DNA from: Nocardioidaceae bacterium
Lineage (GTDB): Bacteria > Actinomycetota > Actinomycetes > Propionibacteriales > Nocardioidaceae
Length of the DNA: 64,000 bases
Direction: 5' to 3'
NCBI GenBank assembly: GCA_018672315.1
Contig: CP076053.1
Span: 1,165,827 to 1,229,826, forward strand
Shown here: piece after piece, positions 5,642 through 63,637 of the stretch
Numbering within the stretch: position 1 is the first letter of the stretch
Layout of the letters: every line of letters begins with the position of its first letter
Made by a program: the position numbers and the translations under genes
Notes under the pieces: generated by a model
The model's input: only the letters and a program-made list of their open reading frames with translations
Told to the model about the DNA's origin: nothing
Databases searched by the model: none

Positions 5642-6553
5642 CTAGAAGGTCTCCCCGGTGAGACGCTCGTACGCCTCGACGTAGCGAGCACGCGTACGCG
5701 CCACGACCTCCTCGGGCAGGGCCGGCGGACGCGCGCCGGAGCTGCGGTCCCAGCCCGACTCCGGCGAGAGCAGCCAGTTGCGGACGACCTGCTTGTCGTA
5801 CGAGGGCTGCGGCTGCCCCGGCCGCCAGTCGTCGCCGGGCCAGAAGCGGCTCGAGTCCGGGGTGAGCACCTCGTCGCCCAGCACGATCGTGCCGTCCTCA
5901 CGCGCCCCGAACTCGAGCTTCGTGTCGGCCAGGATGATGCCGCGCTGCCGCGCCATGGCCTCGGCGGTGGCGTACACCTCGAGGGTGAGGTCGCGCAGCT
6001 GGGCCGCGAGTCCGTCGCCGAGCCGTCGGGCGACGACGTCGTAGCTGACGTTCTCGTCGTGGTCGCCGACCGCCGCCTTGGTCGCGGGCGTGAAGATCGG
6101 CTGGTCCAGCCGGTCGCCGTCGACGAGGCCCTCGGGCAGCGGCACGCCGCAGACCTCGCCGGTCTCGCGGTAGTCGAGGAGGCCCGAGCCGGTCAGGTAG
6201 CCGCGCGCGACGCACTCGACGGGGAACATCTCGAGCGACTCGCACACCACGGCTCGGCCGCGCAGCTCGGCCGGGACGCCGTGCGGCAGGTCGCGCGACA
6301 CGACATGGCCCGGCACGAGGCTGTCGAGCTGGTCGAACCACCACAGCGACATGCGCGTGAGGATCTCGCCCTTGTCGGGGATCGTCGTGTCGAGCACGAA
6401 GTCGAACGCCGAGATGCGGTCGGAGGCGACCATCAGCAGCCGGCCGGCGTGCTCACCCGCCTCGATCCGGTAGAGGTCGCGCACCTTGCCCGAGTGCAGG
6501 TGCGTGCAGCCCTCGATCGGGGTGGCGGCGGGGATGTTCGGGTCGCCCGTCAC
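5642..6553 (-). CDS. purC: SAICAR synthetase (phosphoribosylaminoimidazole-succinocarboxamide synthase)
   Basis: Joins CAIR and aspartate with ATP to make SAICAR in de novo purine synthesis. Recognisable pieces are LHSGKVRDLYRI (nucleotide-binding strand near residue 20), VASDRISAFDFVL, ECVARGYLTGSG near 115, and the family signature ADTKLEFG near 215. Its 303 residues match the longer, stand-alone actinobacterial form. The GTG start at 6553 overlaps the purB stop as GTGA, so translation is coupled to purB. Confidence 0.96.
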   Translation of the reverse strand: MTGDPNIPAATPIEGCTHLHSGKVRDLYRIEAGEHAGRLLMVASDRISAFDFVLDTTIPDKGEILTRMSLWWFDQLDSLVPGHVVSRDLPHGVPAELRGRAVVCESLEMFPVECVARGYLTGSGLLDYRETGEVCGVPLPEGLVDGDRLDQPIFTPATKAAVGDHDENVSYDVVARRLGDGLAAQLRDLTLEVYATAEAMARQRGIILADTKLEFGAREDGTIVLGDEVLTPDSSRFWPGDDWRPGQPQPSYDKQVVRNWLLSPESGWDRSSGARPPALPEEVVARTRARYVEAYERLTGETF

Positions 6554-7968
6554 AGGATCGCCCCGGGGGTGTACGACGCTGCTGCCGGGTCCTGCGCGAC
6601 GTGCGCCTCGACCTGGCGTACGACCTCCCGCACCTGCGAGACCGCCGCGCCGGTGAACTCCAGCGGCTCGGCGACCAGTCGCTCCACCTGCTCGGCGTCG
6701 AGGCCGAGGCGGGGGTCGGCGGCGAGCCGGTCGTACAGGTCGTTGCGTTCCAACCCCTGCCGCATCTCCAGTGCGACGGCGACCGCGTGCTCCTTGATCG
6801 CCTCGTGCGCGGCCTCGCGGCCGACGCCGTTGCGTACGGCCGTCATCAGCACCTTGGTCGTGGTGAGGAACGGCAGGTAGCGGTCGAGCTCACGCTGCAC
6901 CACCGCGGGGAAGACGCCGAACTCGTCGAGCACGGTGAGGAAGGTCTGGAAGAGCCCGTCGAGGGCGAAGAAAGCGTCGGGGAGGGCGACGCGGCGTACG
7001 ACCGAGCAGTAGACGTCACCCTCGTTCCACTGCGAGCCGGCGAGCTCACCCACCATCGACAGCTGGCCCCGGAGCACCACGGCCAGACCGTTGACGCGCT
7101 CGCACGAGCGGGTGTTCATCTTGTGGGGCATCGCCGAGGAGCCCACCTGGCCCTCCTTGAACCCCTCGGTGACGAGCTCGTTGCCGGCCATGAGGCGGAT
7201 GGTGGTCGCGAGGCTGGAGGGTCCGGATGCGATCTGCACGAGCGTCGAGACCACGTCGAAGTCCAACGAGCGCGGATAGACCTGACCGACGCTGCTGAGC
7301 ACCCGGGTGAACCCGAGGTGCGTGGCGACCCGCTGCTCGAGGTCGTCCAACTTGGACGCGTCGCCGCCGAGCAGGTCGAGCATGTCCTGGGCGGTGCCCA
7401 TGGGGCCCTTGATGCCGCGCAGGGGGTAGCGCACCGTCAGCTCGTCGAGGCGTTCGAGCGCGACCAGCAGCTCCTGGGCGGCCGAGGCGAACCGCTTGCC
7501 CATCGTCGTGGCCTGCGCGGCGACGTTGTGGCTGCGGCCCGCCATGACCATGTCGTCGTGGTCGGCGGCCAGCTGCGCGAGTCGCGCCAGCGTCGCGACG
7601 ACCCGCTGGCGGATCAACGCCAGCGAGCTGAGCACCTGCAGCTGCTCGACGTTCTCCGTCAGGTCGCGGCTGGTCATGCCCTTGTGGATCTGCTCGTGCC
7701 CGGCGAGCGCGCTGAACTCCTCGATGCGCGCCTTCACGTCGTGCCGGGTCACCCGCTCGCGGGCGGCGATGGAGGCCAGGTCGACGGAGTCGACGACCTG
7801 CTCGTACGCCTCGACCGCCCCGTCGGGCACGTCGACGCCGAGGTCCTTCTGGGCCTTCAGCACGGCGATCCACAGCCGCCGCTCGAGGACGATCTTGTGC
7901 TCGGGGCTCCAGATCTCGGCCAGGTCGGCTCCGGCGTAGCGGGTGGCGAGGACGTTGGGGACGGTCAC
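6550..7968 (-). CDS. purB: Adenylosuccinate lyase
   Basis: Catalyses two steps: SAICAR to AICAR plus fumarate, and adenylosuccinate to AMP plus fumarate. It belongs to the aspartase/fumarase superfamily and shows the flexible-loop signature GSSAMPHKMN at residues 276-285, whose Ser is the catalytic base, plus GMTSRDLTEN (C1 region) and MAGRSHNVAAQATT (C2 region with catalytic His). The start is GTG 7968; the frame is open 33 codons further but those residues do not resemble the family. A GACAAT box six bases before the GTG suggests a leaderless promoter. With 472 residues it is normal length. It is the neighbour of purC and lies 169 bases after purD. Confidence 0.96.
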   Translation of the reverse strand: MTVPNVLATRYAGADLAEIWSPEHKIVLERRLWIAVLKAQKDLGVDVPDGAVEAYEQVVDSVDLASIAARERVTRHDVKARIEEFSALAGHEQIHKGMTSRDLTENVEQLQVLSSLALIRQRVVATLARLAQLAADHDDMVMAGRSHNVAAQATTMGKRFASAAQELLVALERLDELTVRYPLRGIKGPMGTAQDMLDLLGGDASKLDDLEQRVATHLGFTRVLSSVGQVYPRSLDFDVVSTLVQIASGPSSLATTIRLMAGNELVTEGFKEGQVGSSAMPHKMNTRSCERVNGLAVVLRGQLSMVGELAGSQWNEGDVYCSVVRRVALPDAFFALDGLFQTFLTVLDEFGVFPAVVQRELDRYLPFLTTTKVLMTAVRNGVGREAAHEAIKEHAVAVALEMRQGLERNDLYDRLAADPRLGLDAEQVERLVAEPLEFTGAAVSQVREVVRQVEAHVAQDPAAASYTPGAIL

Positions 7969-8071
7969 GGCGGCATTGTCCCAGCCGGGTCCGACTCCAT
8001 TGTCTCGGGCCGTTGGGAAACCACGGGATCGCTGCGAGACGGCACGACGAGGCCTACGGTGCGTCATCGCC

Positions 8072-8134
8072 GCGTGATTGTGTGCCCTCTCGGCGTGATT
8101 GTGTGCCCTCTCGGCGTGATGGTGTGCCCTCTGG
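8072..8134. repeat. Three tandem copies of a 21-bp repeat (locus A)
   Basis: Units start at 8072, 8093 and 8114, each exactly 21 bases. Each begins GCGTGATT (GCGTGATG in unit 3) and ends TGCCCTCTCG (TGCCCTCTGG in unit 3). The array ends three bases before the purD stop codon on the opposite strand. The same unit occurs at 63112-63174 and, more degenerate, at 25329-25370. No spacers separate the copies, so this is a direct tandem array and not CRISPR. Confidence 0.92.
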
Positions 8135-8137
8135 GCG

Positions 8138-9382
8138 TCAGGCGTCGGCGGCGATGTCGGAGCGCCACTGCGCCCCGTCGAACTCGATGCGTTCGACGCC
8201 CGCGTACGCCTTCGCCCGGGCGTCCTTGACCGAGTCGCCCACGGCGGTCACGCACAGGACACGTCCACCGGCGGTGAGCAGGTGGTCGCCGTCGGTGCGC
8301 GTGCCGGCCTGGATCACCTCGACGCCGTCGAGCTGCTCGAGGCTGCGCTCGCCGTACAGGCCACCGATCAGGTCGCCCGTACGCACCTGCCCGGGGTAAC
8401 CCGCGGCGGCCATCACGACCCCCACCGCAGCGCCCGGCTTCCACACCGGAGCCGGCTCGTTGGCCAGCTCGCCCACGGCGGCCGCGTGCAGCAGCGAGCC
8501 CAGCGGCGAGTCCAGCAGCGCGAGCAGCGGCTGCGTCTCGGGGTCGCCGAAGCGGGCGTTGAACTCGATCACCTTCACGCCGGCCGAGGTCAGGGCGAGA
8601 CCGGCGTACAGGAGCCCCGTGAAGGGCGTGCCCCGACGCCTCATCTCGTCGACGGTCGGCTGCAGCACGGTCTCGAGCACCTCCTCGACGAGCCCGCCGG
8701 GCGCCCACGGGAGCGGGGTGTACGCCCCCATGCCGCCCGTGTTGGGGCCCTCGCCGCCGTCGAAGATGCGCTTGAAGTCCTGCGCGGGCTGCAGCGGGTA
8801 GACCGTCTCGCCGTCGGTGACCGCGAACAACGACACCTCGGGACCGTCGAGGAACTCCTCGACCACCACCCGCGAGCAGGCAGCCGCGTGCGCCATGGCC
8901 TCCGAGTGCAGCTCGGTGACCACGACCCCCTTGCCGCCGGCCAGGCCGTCGTCCTTCACGACGTACGGGCACCCGAGCTGGTCGAGCGCGAGCTCCACCT
9001 CGTCGGGCGAGGTGCACAGGGCCGCCCGGGCCGTCGGCACACCGGCCGAGGCCATGACGTCCTTGGCGAACGCCTTCGAGCCCTCCAGCTGCGCCGCCTC
9101 TCCCGAGGGTCCGAAGCACGCGATGCCCGCGTCACGCACCACGTCGGCGACACCGGCGACCAGCGGCGCCTCGGGGCCGATGACGACCAGGTCCGCGGCG
9201 ACCTGCCTCGCGAGGGCCACCACCGCCTCGCCGTCGCACATGTCGACGGCGTGCACCGTGGCGCACTCGGCCATGCCCGGGTTGCCCGGTGCGGCGTGCA
9301 CCTCACTCACCCCCGGGTCCCGCGTCAGGGCGAGGCACAGGGCGTGCTCGCGGCCACCGGAACCGAGGACGAGTGTCTTCAT
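8138..9382 (-). CDS. purD: Phosphoribosylamine-glycine ligase (GAR synthetase)
   Basis: Makes glycinamide ribonucleotide from phosphoribosylamine, glycine and ATP, the second step of purine synthesis. It opens with MKTLVLGSGGREHALCLAL, the N-domain hallmark, and has an ATP-grasp core including GLAGGKGVVV near 145, a FNARFGDPETQ metal-binding motif near 290, and the C-terminal rudiment-hybrid part. The ATG at 9382 was chosen because the family always begins here; the upstream open frame is unrelated. It starts four bases after purA ends, so both genes are one transcription unit. Length of 414 residues is typical. Confidence 0.96.
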   Translation of the reverse strand: MKTLVLGSGGREHALCLALTRDPGVSEVHAAPGNPGMAECATVHAVDMCDGEAVVALARQVAADLVVIGPEAPLVAGVADVVRDAGIACFGPSGEAAQLEGSKAFAKDVMASAGVPTARAALCTSPDEVELALDQLGCPYVVKDDGLAGGKGVVVTELHSEAMAHAAACSRVVVEEFLDGPEVSLFAVTDGETVYPLQPAQDFKRIFDGGEGPNTGGMGAYTPLPWAPGGLVEEVLETVLQPTVDEMRRRGTPFTGLLYAGLALTSAGVKVIEFNARFGDPETQPLLALLDSPLGSLLHAAAVGELANEPAPVWKPGAAVGVVMAAAGYPGQVRTGDLIGGLYGERSLEQLDGVEVIQAGTRTDGDHLLTAGGRVLCVTAVGDSVKDARAKAYAGVERIEFDGAQWRSDIAADA

Positions 9383-9386
9383 CTGC

Positions 9387-11840
<2,454 letters not shown>

Positions 11841-25305: not shown

Positions 25306-25328
25306 TCTGCACTCGCGGCCCCTTCCGC

Positions 25329-25370
25329 CGAGAGGGCAGAGAATCACGCCCGGAGGGCAGACGTAAGACG
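25329..25370. repeat. Two degenerate copies of the 21-bp repeat (locus C)
   Basis: Read on the opposite strand from locus A, 25329-25349 gives CGAGAGGGCAGAGAATCACG plus one base, matching the unit closely; 25350-25370 is a more divergent second copy keeping GGAGGGCAGA. It sits between the clpB operator and the divergent HAD gene. Confidence 0.7.
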
Positions 25371-31494: not shown

Positions 31495-31521
31495 ATGACC
31501 ACAGCGATGACCACAGCGTGA
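31495..31521 (+). CDS. Eight-codon leader ORF overlapping the E2 start
   Basis: ATG 31495 has the best ribosome site of the area (GGGAGG, six bases upstream) but its frame reads MTTAMTTA and then stops at TGA 31519-31521. The stop overlaps the GTG start of E2 at 31518 as GTGA. It is either a genuine coupling leader, or the original E2 start displaced by a one-base deletion in the third repeat unit. See the repeat entry and finding. Confidence 0.5.
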   Translation: MTTAMTTA

Positions 31522-31553
31522 CCACAGCGATGACCACAGCGATGACCACTGCG
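31495..31553. repeat. Five tandem 12-bp units at the E2 start codon
   Basis: Units ATGACCACAGCG start at 31495 and 31507; unit 3 (31519-31529) lacks the leading A and is 11 bases; units 4 and 5 start at 31530 and 31542, the last reading ATGACCACTGCG. Each full unit encodes Met-Thr-Thr-Ala. The 11-base unit shifts the frame between leader ORF and E2. Confidence 0.9.
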
Positions 31554-32879
31554 ACCGGGACCGCCCGGGAGTTCCGTCTGCCCGACGTCGGTGAGGGGCT
31601 CACCGAGGCCGACGTCGTCACCTGGCACGTCGCCGTGGGCGACGTCGTGGAGGAGAACCAGACGCTCGTCGACATCGAGACGGCCAAGTCGGTGGTCGAG
31701 CTGCCGAGCCCGTACGCCGGCGAGGTCCTCGAGCTCCTGGCCGCCGAAGGCGACACCGTCGAGGTCGGCACGCCGATCATCCGGATCGGCGCGGCGACCG
31801 GGACGAGCCACGCGGGCCCGCAGCTCCAGGAGCCCGAGGAGCCCCGGGAGCCCCGGGAGCCCCGGGAGCCCAAGCCGCTGGTCGGCTACGGCGCGCGGCC
31901 CGAGAGCTCGCGCGGTCGACGACGCCGTCCCGGGACCCGTCCCGGGACCCGTCCCGGGACCCACCCCCAGACCCCAGACCACGGCGCGCCGGACGCGGCC
32001 GGGGAGCGTCCGCGAGCCAAGCCCCCCGTACGCCGTCTGGCCGCCGACCTGGGCGTCGACCTGGGCGAGGTCGTCGCCACCGGCCCCGACCGCGTGACCA
32101 CCCGGGAGGACGTCGAGCGGCACGCCGCGAGAAGTGACCCCTCGCGGGAAGTGCCCTCTCGCGAGGTGCGGACGCCGGTCGCGGGGGTCCGCAAGCACAC
32201 CGCGGCGGCGATGGTCGCCTCGGCGTTCACGGCCCCGCACGCGACGCTCTTCACGACCGTGGACGCCACCGCGACGATGGACCTGCGCGAGCGACTGCGG
32301 CGGCGTCCCGAGATCGGCGGGGCCCCGCTGAGCCCGCTGGTGTTCGTGGCTCGCGCCTACCTGCGCGCCCTGACCCGTACCCCGGTCGCCCACGCCCGGT
32401 GGGTGGATCTCGAGGACGGGTCGGCGGAGATCGTGCAGCCTCCGCACGTGCACCTCGGCATCGCCGCGGCGACCCCGCGCGGACTCGTGGTGCCGGTGCT
32501 CAGGCAGGCCGACACCCTCGCGCTGCCCGCGCTGGCCTCAGCCATCGGGGAACTGACCGCGACCGCCAGGGCGGGGCGTACGCCTCCCGAGGCCATGACC
32601 GGGGGGACGGCGACGATCACGAACGTGGGCGTCTTCGGCATCGACGGCGGCACGCCGATCCTCAACCCCGGGGAGACCTCGATCCTGGCCGTGGGCGCGG
32701 TGCGTCGCCGACCGTGGGTGGTCACCGACCCGGACGGTTCGCACGAGCGCCTCGAGCCGCGGTCGGTGATGCAGCTGTCGCTCTCCTTCGACCACCGCGT
32801 GGTCGACGGTGCCGAGGCCTCCCAGGTGCTGGCCGACACCGCCGCGGTCCTCGAGGACCCCGGGATGGCGATGCTCTGA
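31518..32879 (+). CDS. bkdC: Dihydrolipoamide acyltransferase E2
   Basis: Core acyltransferase of the branched-chain 2-oxoacid dehydrogenase complex. Residues 17-95 form one lipoyl domain with the modified Lys57 in DIETAKSVVELPSPYAG. A linker with PREPREPREP and RPGTRPGTRPGT repeats follows, then the E1/E3-binding domain (VRRLAADLGVDLGEVVATG, about 170-205), then the catalytic domain with SFDHRVVDGAEAS near the end. GTG 31518 is used because ATG 31495 hits a stop; the first in-frame ATG is 31530. No E3 (lipoamide dehydrogenase) gene follows, so it is shared from elsewhere. Confidence 0.9.
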   Translation: MTTAMTTAMTTATGTAREFRLPDVGEGLTEADVVTWHVAVGDVVEENQTLVDIETAKSVVELPSPYAGEVLELLAAEGDTVEVGTPIIRIGAATGTSHAGPQLQEPEEPREPREPREPKPLVGYGARPESSRGRRRRPGTRPGTRPGTHPQTPDHGAPDAAGERPRAKPPVRRLAADLGVDLGEVVATGPDRVTTREDVERHAARSDPSREVPSREVRTPVAGVRKHTAAAMVASAFTAPHATLFTTVDATATMDLRERLRRRPEIGGAPLSPLVFVARAYLRALTRTPVAHARWVDLEDGSAEIVQPPHVHLGIAAATPRGLVVPVLRQADTLALPALASAIGELTATARAGRTPPEAMTGGTATITNVGVFGIDGGTPILNPGETSILAVGAVRRRPWVVTDPDGSHERLEPRSVMQLSLSFDHRVVDGAEASQVLADTAAVLEDPGMAML

Positions 32880-60048: not shown

Positions 60049-60119
60049 GCGGATGTAGTTCAATGGCAGAACATCAGCTTCCCAAGCTGAGAATGCGAGT
60101 TCGATTCTCGTCATCCGCT
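60049..60119 (+). tRNA. tRNA-Gly (anticodon CCC)
   Basis: Cloverleaf folds completely: acceptor stem GCGGATG with CATCCGC, anticodon stem TCAGC/GCTGA with loop TTCCCAA giving anticodon CCC for GGG codons, and a T-arm with GTTCGATTC. The discriminator is T at 60119, and CCA is encoded at 60120-60122. It is in a gap between dcd and an MFS gene, and no integrase or attachment repeat is seen. Confidence 0.97.
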
Positions 60120-62189: not shown

Positions 62190-62444
62190 GTGGAACAACG
62201 CTCCGTACGCCGTGCCAAGCGCCGCCGCGCCTACTTCGTGATGATGGGCACCTGCCTGACCCTCATCGTTCTCGCCTGGGGCGTCGTGCGCTTCTTCTCC
62301 ACCACCGCGGCTGTGGTGATGAGCCTGGTCGCCGCGGTCATCCCGCCCATCGCCGCGATCGTGGCGAACCGTGGGCTGACCGACGCCGACAACGACCCGT
62401 TCACCTACCCGGACTCGGGCGGGGACGCGCGGGGCGAGCGATGA
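62190..62444 (+). CDS. DUF3099 family small membrane protein
   Basis: An 84-residue actinobacterial protein. A basic N-terminus (RSVRRAKRRRAYFVMMG) leads to two adjacent hydrophobic helices (about 20-38 and 45-65), then ANRGLTDADNDPF. The order Arg-rich then Y-F-x-M-x-G resembles DUF3099. GTG 62190 is used; GTG 62184 would add two residues. The stop overlaps the start of the DUF2461 gene as ATGA. Function unknown. Confidence 0.7.
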   Translation: MEQRSVRRAKRRRAYFVMMGTCLTLIVLAWGVVRFFSTTAAVVMSLVAAVIPPIAAIVANRGLTDADNDPFTYPDSGGDARGER

Positions 62445-63100
62445 GCTTCGCCGGCATCCCAGTGGCCGCCCTCGACTTCTACGACGACCTCGAGCTCGAC
62501 AACACGAAGTCGTTCTGGGAGGCGCGCAAGCAGACGTACGCCGAGGCCGTCCGCGGCCCGATGCAGGCCCTCGCCGCGACGCTCGAGCCGGAGTTCGGCA
62601 AGGCCAAGCTGTTCCGGCCCTACCGCGACGTGCGCTTCAGCAAGGACAAGACGCCGTACAAGACGCACCAGGGGCTGTTCGTCCAGAAGGCCCCGGCGAC
62701 AGGCCTGTACGCCGAGGTGGCCGCGCCCGGCTTCCGTGTGGGCGTCGGTTTCTACCACGCCGAGCCGGCCCGGCTGGCGGCGTTCCGCACGGCGGTCGAC
62801 TCCCCTGCGGGTGAGTCGCTGGAGCGTACGCTCGCCGCTCTCGAGGGCGCCGGCTGGGAACGCGGCGGTGACCGGCTGAAGACCTCACCGCGCGGCTGGG
62901 ACGCGGACCACCCGCGTATCGACCTGCTGCGTCACAAGACGCTGACGCTGGCCAAGCACTACGGCTTCGAGGACTGGATCCACACGCCGGCGCTCGCGGA
63001 CCAGGTCGCGGCGGACTGGCGTGAGGCGATGCCGCTCGTCACGTGGGTCACCGAGCACACCCGGGTCGAGGCCGACGACGTGGTGCTGCGCGAGGGCTGA
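62441..63100 (+). CDS. DUF2461 family protein
   Basis: A 219-residue protein of the widespread DUF2461 family. It begins FAGIPVAALDFYDDLELDNT and has KLFRPYRDVRFSKDKTPYKT near 60 and GVGFYHAEPARLAAFR near 105, the conserved parts of the family. Structures of the family suggest a compact alpha/beta fold, but no activity is established. It is coupled to the DUF3099 gene. It ends before the 21-bp repeat array of locus B. Confidence 0.85.
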   Translation: MSFAGIPVAALDFYDDLELDNTKSFWEARKQTYAEAVRGPMQALAATLEPEFGKAKLFRPYRDVRFSKDKTPYKTHQGLFVQKAPATGLYAEVAAPGFRVGVGFYHAEPARLAAFRTAVDSPAGESLERTLAALEGAGWERGGDRLKTSPRGWDADHPRIDLLRHKTLTLAKHYGFEDWIHTPALADQVAADWREAMPLVTWVTEHTRVEADDVVLREG

Positions 63101-63111
63101 GACCTCCATCG

Positions 63112-63174
63112 GCGCGATTTTGTGCCCTCTGGGCGTGACTATGTGCCCTCTCGGCGCGATTTTGTGCCCTCTCG
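63112..63174. repeat. Three tandem copies of the 21-bp repeat (locus B)
   Basis: Units start at 63112, 63133 and 63154, each 21 bases: they begin GCGCGATT, GCGTGACT and GCGCGATT and end TGCCCTCTGG, TGCCCTCTCG and TGCCCTCTCG. The array ends four bases before the Rrf2 regulator's stop codon on the minus strand, the same geometry as locus A beside purD. Confidence 0.92.
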
Positions 63175-63178
63175 GCGG

Positions 63179-63637
63179 TCAGTGGGGCTGCCAGGCGTCC
63201 TCGTCGCCGGTGCGCTCCTGCACGGCGTCGGGCAGCTCACCCGCGGCGAGGTCGGCGATGGTGACCGACTCGAGCACCTCACGCAGGCTGGACCTCGCCG
63301 CGATCCACACCGGCTGCAGCACGGCGGCGCGCTCGTTGTACTCCACCGCCTCGGGGCGGAGGCCGTACACGCTGACCAGCGGTCCGTCGACCGCCCTGAT
63401 CACGTCGGCGACGCGCACCTCCGCCGCAGCCCTCGCCATGCGCCACCCCCCGGACTGACCGCGCTGCGAGGCACAGATGCCGGCCCGTCGGAGATCGCCG
63501 AGGATCGCCTGGAGGAAGCCGTGCGGGATGTCCTGCCGGGTCGACAGCGACTCGGCGCTGACCGGTCGACCGGACTCCTCGGTGACGATCTCGATCAGCG
63601 CGCGCAGGGCGTAGTCGGACTTGGCGGAGACGCGCAC
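63179..63637 (-). CDS. Rrf2 family transcriptional regulator without cluster cysteines
   Basis: A 152-residue winged-helix regulator of the Rrf2 family (IscR, NsrR, CymR). The start MRVSAKSDYALRALIEIVTE and the HTH ESLSTRQDIPHGFLQAILGD then LRRAGICASQRGQSGGWRMA are typical. The region where IscR/NsrR have three Cys to bind an Fe-S cluster has none here, so it should be a CymR-type, non-cluster regulator. GTG 63637 lies in an inverted repeat that overlaps a GACACT -10 box. The neighbouring TSUP gene suggests a link to sulfur compounds (inference). Confidence 0.87.
   Translation of the reverse strand: MRVSAKSDYALRALIEIVTEESGRPVSAESLSTRQDIPHGFLQAILGDLRRAGICASQRGQSGGWRMARAAAEVRVADVIRAVDGPLVSVYGLRPEAVEYNERAAVLQPVWIAARSSLREVLESVTIADLAAGELPDAVQERTGDEDAWQPH

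Follow-up and report, generated by a model that had tools for sequence, protein, structure and literature searches.

A family of short tandem repeats placed in sense at stop codons in a Nocardioidaceae genome and its relatives

Repeat arrays in the window

The 64,000-nucleotide stretch of Nocardioidaceae chromosome analysed here (contig CP076053.1, positions 1,165,827 to 1,229,826; the whole stretch is referred to as the window) contains small arrays of a tandemly repeated 21-bp unit, two of which directly follow the stop codon of a gene. Seven matches to the pattern GNGTGATTNTGTGCCCTCTSG, allowing up to three mismatches, were found in the window against 0.00 expected in shuffled sequence. Gene names are readings of the encoded proteins, except where a Pfam or PDB comparison is stated, and gene ends were set by a codon-usage scorer of open reading frames (ORFs) written for this analysis. 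The first array (8071..8137, minus strand) consists of three units, CGCCNAGAGGGCACACNATCA in gene sense, and abuts the stop codon (TCA/TGA, 8138-8140) of a purD-like gene of 439 amino acids (8138..9457, minus strand). A purB-like gene (6550..7968, minus strand) follows, its start lying 169 nucleotides (nt) from the purD stop. A degenerate inverted partner of the array, CGTGCCGTCTCG, is present at 8035..8048 with no strand assigned, and the two together form a weak hairpin at most (z -2.1).

The second array (63112..63177, minus strand) contains three direct units only and forms no hairpin (z -0.9). It is faced by the stop codon (TCA, 63179-63181) of an Rrf2-like gene of 152 amino acids (63179..63637, minus strand), and its other end lies about 11 bp from the stop (63098-63100) of a convergent gene (62441..63100, plus strand). 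The third unit of the purD array is the TGATGG and CTGG variant, and the array at 63112 carries TGACTA and CTGG. A third site (L040; 25326..25367, plus strand) lies between divergent genes and consists of a good unit and a degenerate one; it is an exception to placement at stop codons. Lastly, about two units of a sister family with a 17-bp period, GAGGGGTCACTTCTCGC, lie antisense within an E2-like gene (32126..32165, minus strand).

An earlier note on this DNA had described exact 21-bp tandem units at 8072-8134 and 63112-63174, 3-4 bases beyond minus-strand stops, together with a degenerate pair at 25329-25370 and a fragment of the unit in the E2 gene at 32151-32162. The positions of the two arrays and their place beside minus-strand stops were borne out, the units being near-identical rather than exact. 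The distance of 3-4 bases reflects another choice of phase; with units phased from CGCC in the gene-strand reading, the distance to TGA is 0 nt for the purD array and 1 nt for the Rrf2-like array. The degenerate pair exists at slightly shifted coordinates, with one of its units good, and the E2 fragment is present as part of the period-17 sister family. A comparison of the window with Rfam gave only a tRNA (60049-60119) above the gathering score and no match at the arrays, by which a known RNA family was ruled out.

The family in its genome and its placement at stop codons

A 20-mer search with up to three mismatches returned 87 matches in the 3.60-Mb chromosome, so the unit is not confined to the window. 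The reversed-pattern control returned 0, and with the shuffle controls also empty a chance repeat was ruled out. The approximately 85 copies of the 21-bp unit, which reads CGCCGAGAGGGCACANAATCA in gene sense, are grouped at about 24 sites and are strictly spaced: of the 35 steps between neighbouring cores on the same strand, 33 measure 21 bp and the remaining two 42 bp. Alignment of 65 units showed a nearly invariant core, an invariance partly built into the search pattern, and a variable tail after CGAGAGGGCA. The sister family with period 17, GAGAGGTCACTTCYCGC, has about 41 matches in the same genome, and both families are combined in a single mixed array at locus L054. Further unit families were sought by pattern only. 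A 21-bp variant array, GAGAGGGCACCACTTCAGGCC, whose tail is that of neither main dialect, was seen 2 nt after a stop at L044 (G000:C1:1873951-1874033), with another copy about 1.1 kb away.

Immediately behind the stop codon, the unit has the gene-strand sequence CGCCGAGAGG. Junctions take the forms TGA/CGCCGAG, TGAC/CGCCGAG and TGACC/CGCCGAG, or the stop lies inside the unit (CGC TGA GAGG, TGA CGAGAGG); often the stop is the unit's own CGA changed to TGA. A scripted count covered sampled loci from eight genomes or genome groups. Of the 114 blocks, 66 began between -4 and +8 nt from a coding stop of the same sense, compared with 0.99% of random positions in the same loci. Offsets from the stop are discrete, at -4, +2, +3 and +4. 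The count is an underestimate because variant first units were missed by the pattern, as indicated by distances such as 23 (2 + 21). A control using a wider distance range gave 75 of 142 blocks in sense against 15 of 142 in antisense, part of the latter being expected from convergent gene pairs. At such pairs, arrays are often found on both stops and point outward, and at L042 the space between the convergent genes contains almost nothing but arrays. Co-directional pairs are also split by arrays, namely purD/purB, purH/folD-like and ftsQ/ftsZ-like. Adjacency to stops through truncated or extended proteins was ruled out, as PurD keeps its C-terminus, the length of which is conserved in relatives. 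Mere tolerance of repeats in spacers would not yield offsets of 0-2 nt.

Arrays were also found inside five ORFs, all five in sense and all five in the frame AERAxxH. In ornithine carbamoyltransferase (ArgF; L055, G000:C1:3562286-3563302), an in-frame array and a short tail extend past the end of the solved homologues, and the array starts within a few residues of the point where the alignment to them stops (PDB comparison). At L052 (G000:C1:2748124-2749713), a single ORF joins a phytoene synthase (CrtB) to a NUDIX (Idi-like) domain; the array (2749056-2749096) starts about 18 residues after the synthase domain and the NUDIX domain follows in the same ORF (Pfam). Judged from these alignments, the array in both ArgF and CrtB lies about where a stop would be expected, and the stop seems to have been lost so that the gene runs on. 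The CrtB-Idi-like ORF looks like two genes fused where a stop codon was lost. Of the remaining three ORFs, one encodes a spermidine-synthase-like protein, one a SWIM protein, and one a large protein that gave no Pfam match over the stretch compared.

Orthologous loci and dialects in relatives

Filled and empty versions of the same locus were found by comparison with relatives. In 17 of 21 relatives, the interval from the purD stop to the purB start is 2-78 nt, against the 169 nt measured here, where the array sits directly behind the stop and the C-terminus of PurD is unchanged. A second locus is a convergent pair made up of a gene ending in RILQARQL and a pyrG-like gene. Their stops are separated, with no array, by 4 bp in genome G417 and by about 16 bp in G122, while arrays begin at the same TGA in G066, G230, G201, G177 and G163. 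An unrelated palindromic element occupies this locus in G220 and G189.

Other elements were noted behind the same genes. In other species (L269, L272, L274, L275), the same convergent spacer downstream of the RILQARQL gene is occupied by a double palindromic element, CAGCGATCCCCGGCTGACCGGGGATCGCTG and ATGTCAGGCCGTGCACGGCCTGACAT, that is not related to the arrays. Different tandem repeats directly follow the same stops in G095 (CGAGTCGGCGCCAGCCGACCGC, L279) and, after purD, in G050 (GGCCCGGATCGTCCATGTGGACGGTTGTGG, L249).

Among 294 genomes of the same taxonomic family, inferred to be Nocardioidaceae, only 7 gave near matches to the exact 21-bp unit. Several relatives display the same arrangement with the shared core CCGASCGGGC, different tails and a period of 31 or 32 bp: 32-bp units CGCCGACCGGGCGCAGATGTCCCGC in G083, with a close variant in G077 and 32-bp units also in G081, and 31-bp units CCGACCGGGCACTTCCTCGCG in G066, G140 and G153 and ACTTCGTGCCCGTC in G163. 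Their arrays likewise begin at stops, often with TGA in place of the unit's CGA before CCGGGCAC. The earlier note had held that the idea of a 3' element would fail if the unit were absent elsewhere in the genome and away from stops in relatives; copies were found genome-wide, and arrays in relatives are placed at stop codons. Other families of the order gave matches at roughly the reversed-control level, and of 246 genomes of the class searched with a tandem pattern for the 31/32-bp dialect only two were positive, both from one genus of the same family; a spread across the order or class was thereby ruled out. Public genomes yielded four distant matches, tandem arrays of a related core that are too few to interpret; one of them (L067) is placed behind a stop codon.

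Two arrays lie in metagenome-assembled genomes. In a Solirubrobacterales assembly from a different lineage (L067, near 4234), a 15-bp array, CCCAGAGGGCACATA, lies in sense 3 nt after a TGA and has a core like that of the 21-bp unit. In an Actinomycetes assembly (L066, near 3233), two 27-bp units with the core GGCCGAGAGGGCACAAC make up a small ORF, and its TGA shares bases with the ATG of the following gene, the stop/start overlap described for the MIRU elements.

Tail identity between sites of one genome was 0.63-0.82 in well-sampled genomes, and about 0.8 in most of the genomes sampled. For orthologous sites compared across genomes it was 0.48, 0.64, 0.58, 0.85 and 0.82, against 0.59, 0.59, 0.61, 0.78 and 0.75 for any two sites of those genomes, so that orthologous pairs differ about as much as random ones. 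Tails match the dialect of their own genome and not that of the ortholog; arrays were either re-inserted at the same genes or homogenised genome-wide. No description of this repeat family was found in the open-access papers searched.

Folding, origin and possible function

Sites with inverted arrays form hairpins (z -5.8 to -13.1), short inverted sites give intermediate fold scores, and the fold of direct-only arrays (ftsQ-like, purD, Rrf2-like and others) is unremarkable (z +0.7 to -2.9). A hairpin as the universal function of the family was ruled out, since direct-only arrays do not fold. Beyond the core, the two arms of a site pair no better than arms taken at random from different sites in any of six genomes, and no site-specific compensatory change was observed. 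A first test for compensation (163 of 20000 shuffles) had included palindromes read through their own centre, and the corrected test in the six genomes shows none. Because arms match no better within sites, the hairpin is the expected product of two facing copies of the family. With respect to a classical intrinsic terminator, no T run was found after arrays or hairpins, and the sequence that follows is GC-rich. A terminator role at convergent sites is plausible.

On balance, the arrays are probably a non-autonomous interspersed repeat that was inserted in sense at stop codons and is specific to the lineage, inferred to be Nocardioidaceae. The unit of 17, 21, 31 or 32 bp would consist of a shared core, CGCCGASCGGGC (here CGCCGAGAGGGC), and a lineage-specific tail. 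It may have been inserted in sense at or directly after the stop codon of a gene and then, through slippage or unequal exchange, expanded into a head-to-tail array of constant spacing. If both genes of a convergent pair received one, the arrays would face each other and the transcript could fold into a long hairpin of tens of bp, which probably serves as a U-less bidirectional terminator or as a 3' end protector at these sites. Some arrays lie within ORFs in the frame AERAxxH, with the stop seemingly lost in at least two. The suggestions of an insertion-like repeat and of a transcript 3'-end element made in the earlier note both fit the genome-wide occurrence, the sense orientation at stops and the filled and empty orthologous loci.

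Several observations weigh against insertion. Neither a target-site duplication nor a newly arisen insertion within one species was identified. The RAYT-class transposase PF01797 was found in 0 of 11 genomes searched, by a search that was positive in 5 of 14 known genomes used as a control, and no transposase was tied to the arrays. About 40% of blocks were unmatched to an adjacent stop, some through a missed variant first unit, and the stop-codon rule has exceptions, since at least two sites of the genome itself (L035 and the site at 25326, L040) lie between divergent genes. That arrays recur at the same genes of related species might also reflect selection for a function there. A bolder form of the insertion reading, a new class of mobile repeat, is offered tentatively: insertion would be directed to stops in sense, perhaps via the transcript or the terminating ribosome, the element would itself supply the stop in many copies, tail dialects would be replaced lineage-wide, and occasional loss of a stop would fuse neighbouring genes, the CrtB-Idi-like ORF being an example.

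The main rival is selection for a 3' end signal, in which the arrays would act as a terminator, an mRNA 3' protector or an element that slows ribosomes at the stop, as E. coli REPs at distances of up to 15 nt are reported to do, and be kept alike by selection with a trans-acting factor that differs between lineages. Exact placement at stops, constant sense orientation, strong hairpins at convergent pairs and the presence of arrays at orthologous genes of related species are all consistent with such a signal. In E. coli, REPs located less than 16 nt from a stop reportedly lower translation (PMC12306157), and hairpin terminators that lack U tracts have been reported (PMC8355165). It is less easily reconciled with direct-only arrays that lack unusual structure, the missing T run behind hairpins, empty orthologous sites, the lack of site-specific compensatory change and arrays within ORFs. 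As the sole explanation a selected signal is judged rather doubtful, although selection for 3' function could act together with insertion.

A role in protein binding at the DNA level, in which gyrase or a nucleoid protein, for example, would bind one helical face at gene ends, is improbable. The idea draws on the analogy of BIME-2 and gyrase and gains from the near-whole helical turns of periods 21, 31 and 32, the conserved core with varying tails, and the frequent position between convergent genes, where supercoils would meet. Period 17 is not near a whole number of turns, yet it occurs in the same genome and even within the mixed array at L054, and neither sense orientation exactly at stops nor in-frame ORF copies would be expected. 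The two-helical-turn phasing for a bound protein that the earlier note had proposed is not needed, since the core recurs at all four periods and head-to-tail duplication is enough to account for constant spacing. DNA uptake or genome-tag sequences resembling the DNA uptake sequences (DUS) of Neisseria are more improbable still. The Neisseriaceae DUS share a core with lineage variation and form hairpins from inverted pairs at gene ends, and the present family resembles them in its lineage dialects and inverted pairs. However, DUS promote uptake through hundreds to thousands of mostly single copies, whereas the approximately 85 copies at about 24 sites here are far fewer, are mostly tandem rather than singly spread, dock exactly on stop codons and are patchy between sister species.

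Among described systems, MIRU, RPE and REP come closest, and the family is best read as a member of none of them. MIRUs, the nearest of these in spirit, are short, dispersed, apparently mobile actinobacterial elements with a fixed orientation on translation signals, and are reported to insert at start codons with an internal ORF coupled to the next gene (PMC12548453). The present arrays share with them the actinobacterial host, the apparent mobility, the association with translation signals and the fixed orientation relative to genes. They differ in docking on stops, often between convergent genes, in units of 17-32 bp, and in lacking start-codon insertion with a coupled ORF, which sets them apart from MIRUs by description. 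RPEs are longer palindromic elements known mainly from genes. The in-frame ORF copies recall them in occupying one tolerated frame (5 of 5), though these are a minority of sites; most copies here are at stops, the unit is short and tandem, and direct arrays form no palindrome.

REP, BIME and REPIN elements are similar in having many intergenic copies near gene 3' ends, hairpins from inverted pairs and genome-specific variants. The present unit is non-palindromic and does not fold alone, and its arrays run head-to-tail at fixed spacing. Only approximately 11% of the REPs predicted in E. coli are 15 nt or less from a stop (PMC12306157), compared with a majority of blocks within 8 nt here. A RAYT-driven REPIN was ruled out by the absence of PF01797, the Y1 transposase, from the 11 genomes. 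U-less hairpin terminators (I- and X-shaped, and hairpin clusters) likewise place hairpins directly after stops between convergent genes, but the repeats here belong to one sequence family spread over unrelated genes, and arrays of direct units only lack a hairpin.

For interspersed repeats in bacteria, the usual explanation is either recognition by a transposase or tolerance in spacers. The present, fast-changing family is associated with a single exact gene feature, the stop codon, and with a single orientation. It lacks the REP-type transposase class, and its sequence differs genome-wide between related species. If insertion is truly directed to stops, a targeting step linked to transcription or translation would be implied, and convergent genes would have a simple route to hairpin ends and neighbouring genes a simple route to fusion. 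The filled and empty orthologous loci make the effect of an array on 3' ends directly testable.

A separate set of short tandem repeats was observed in the start and linker of the E2-like gene (window 31495-31974), with units of 12 bp ATGACCACAGCG, 9 bp GGAGCCCCG and 12 bp CCGTCCCGGGAC.
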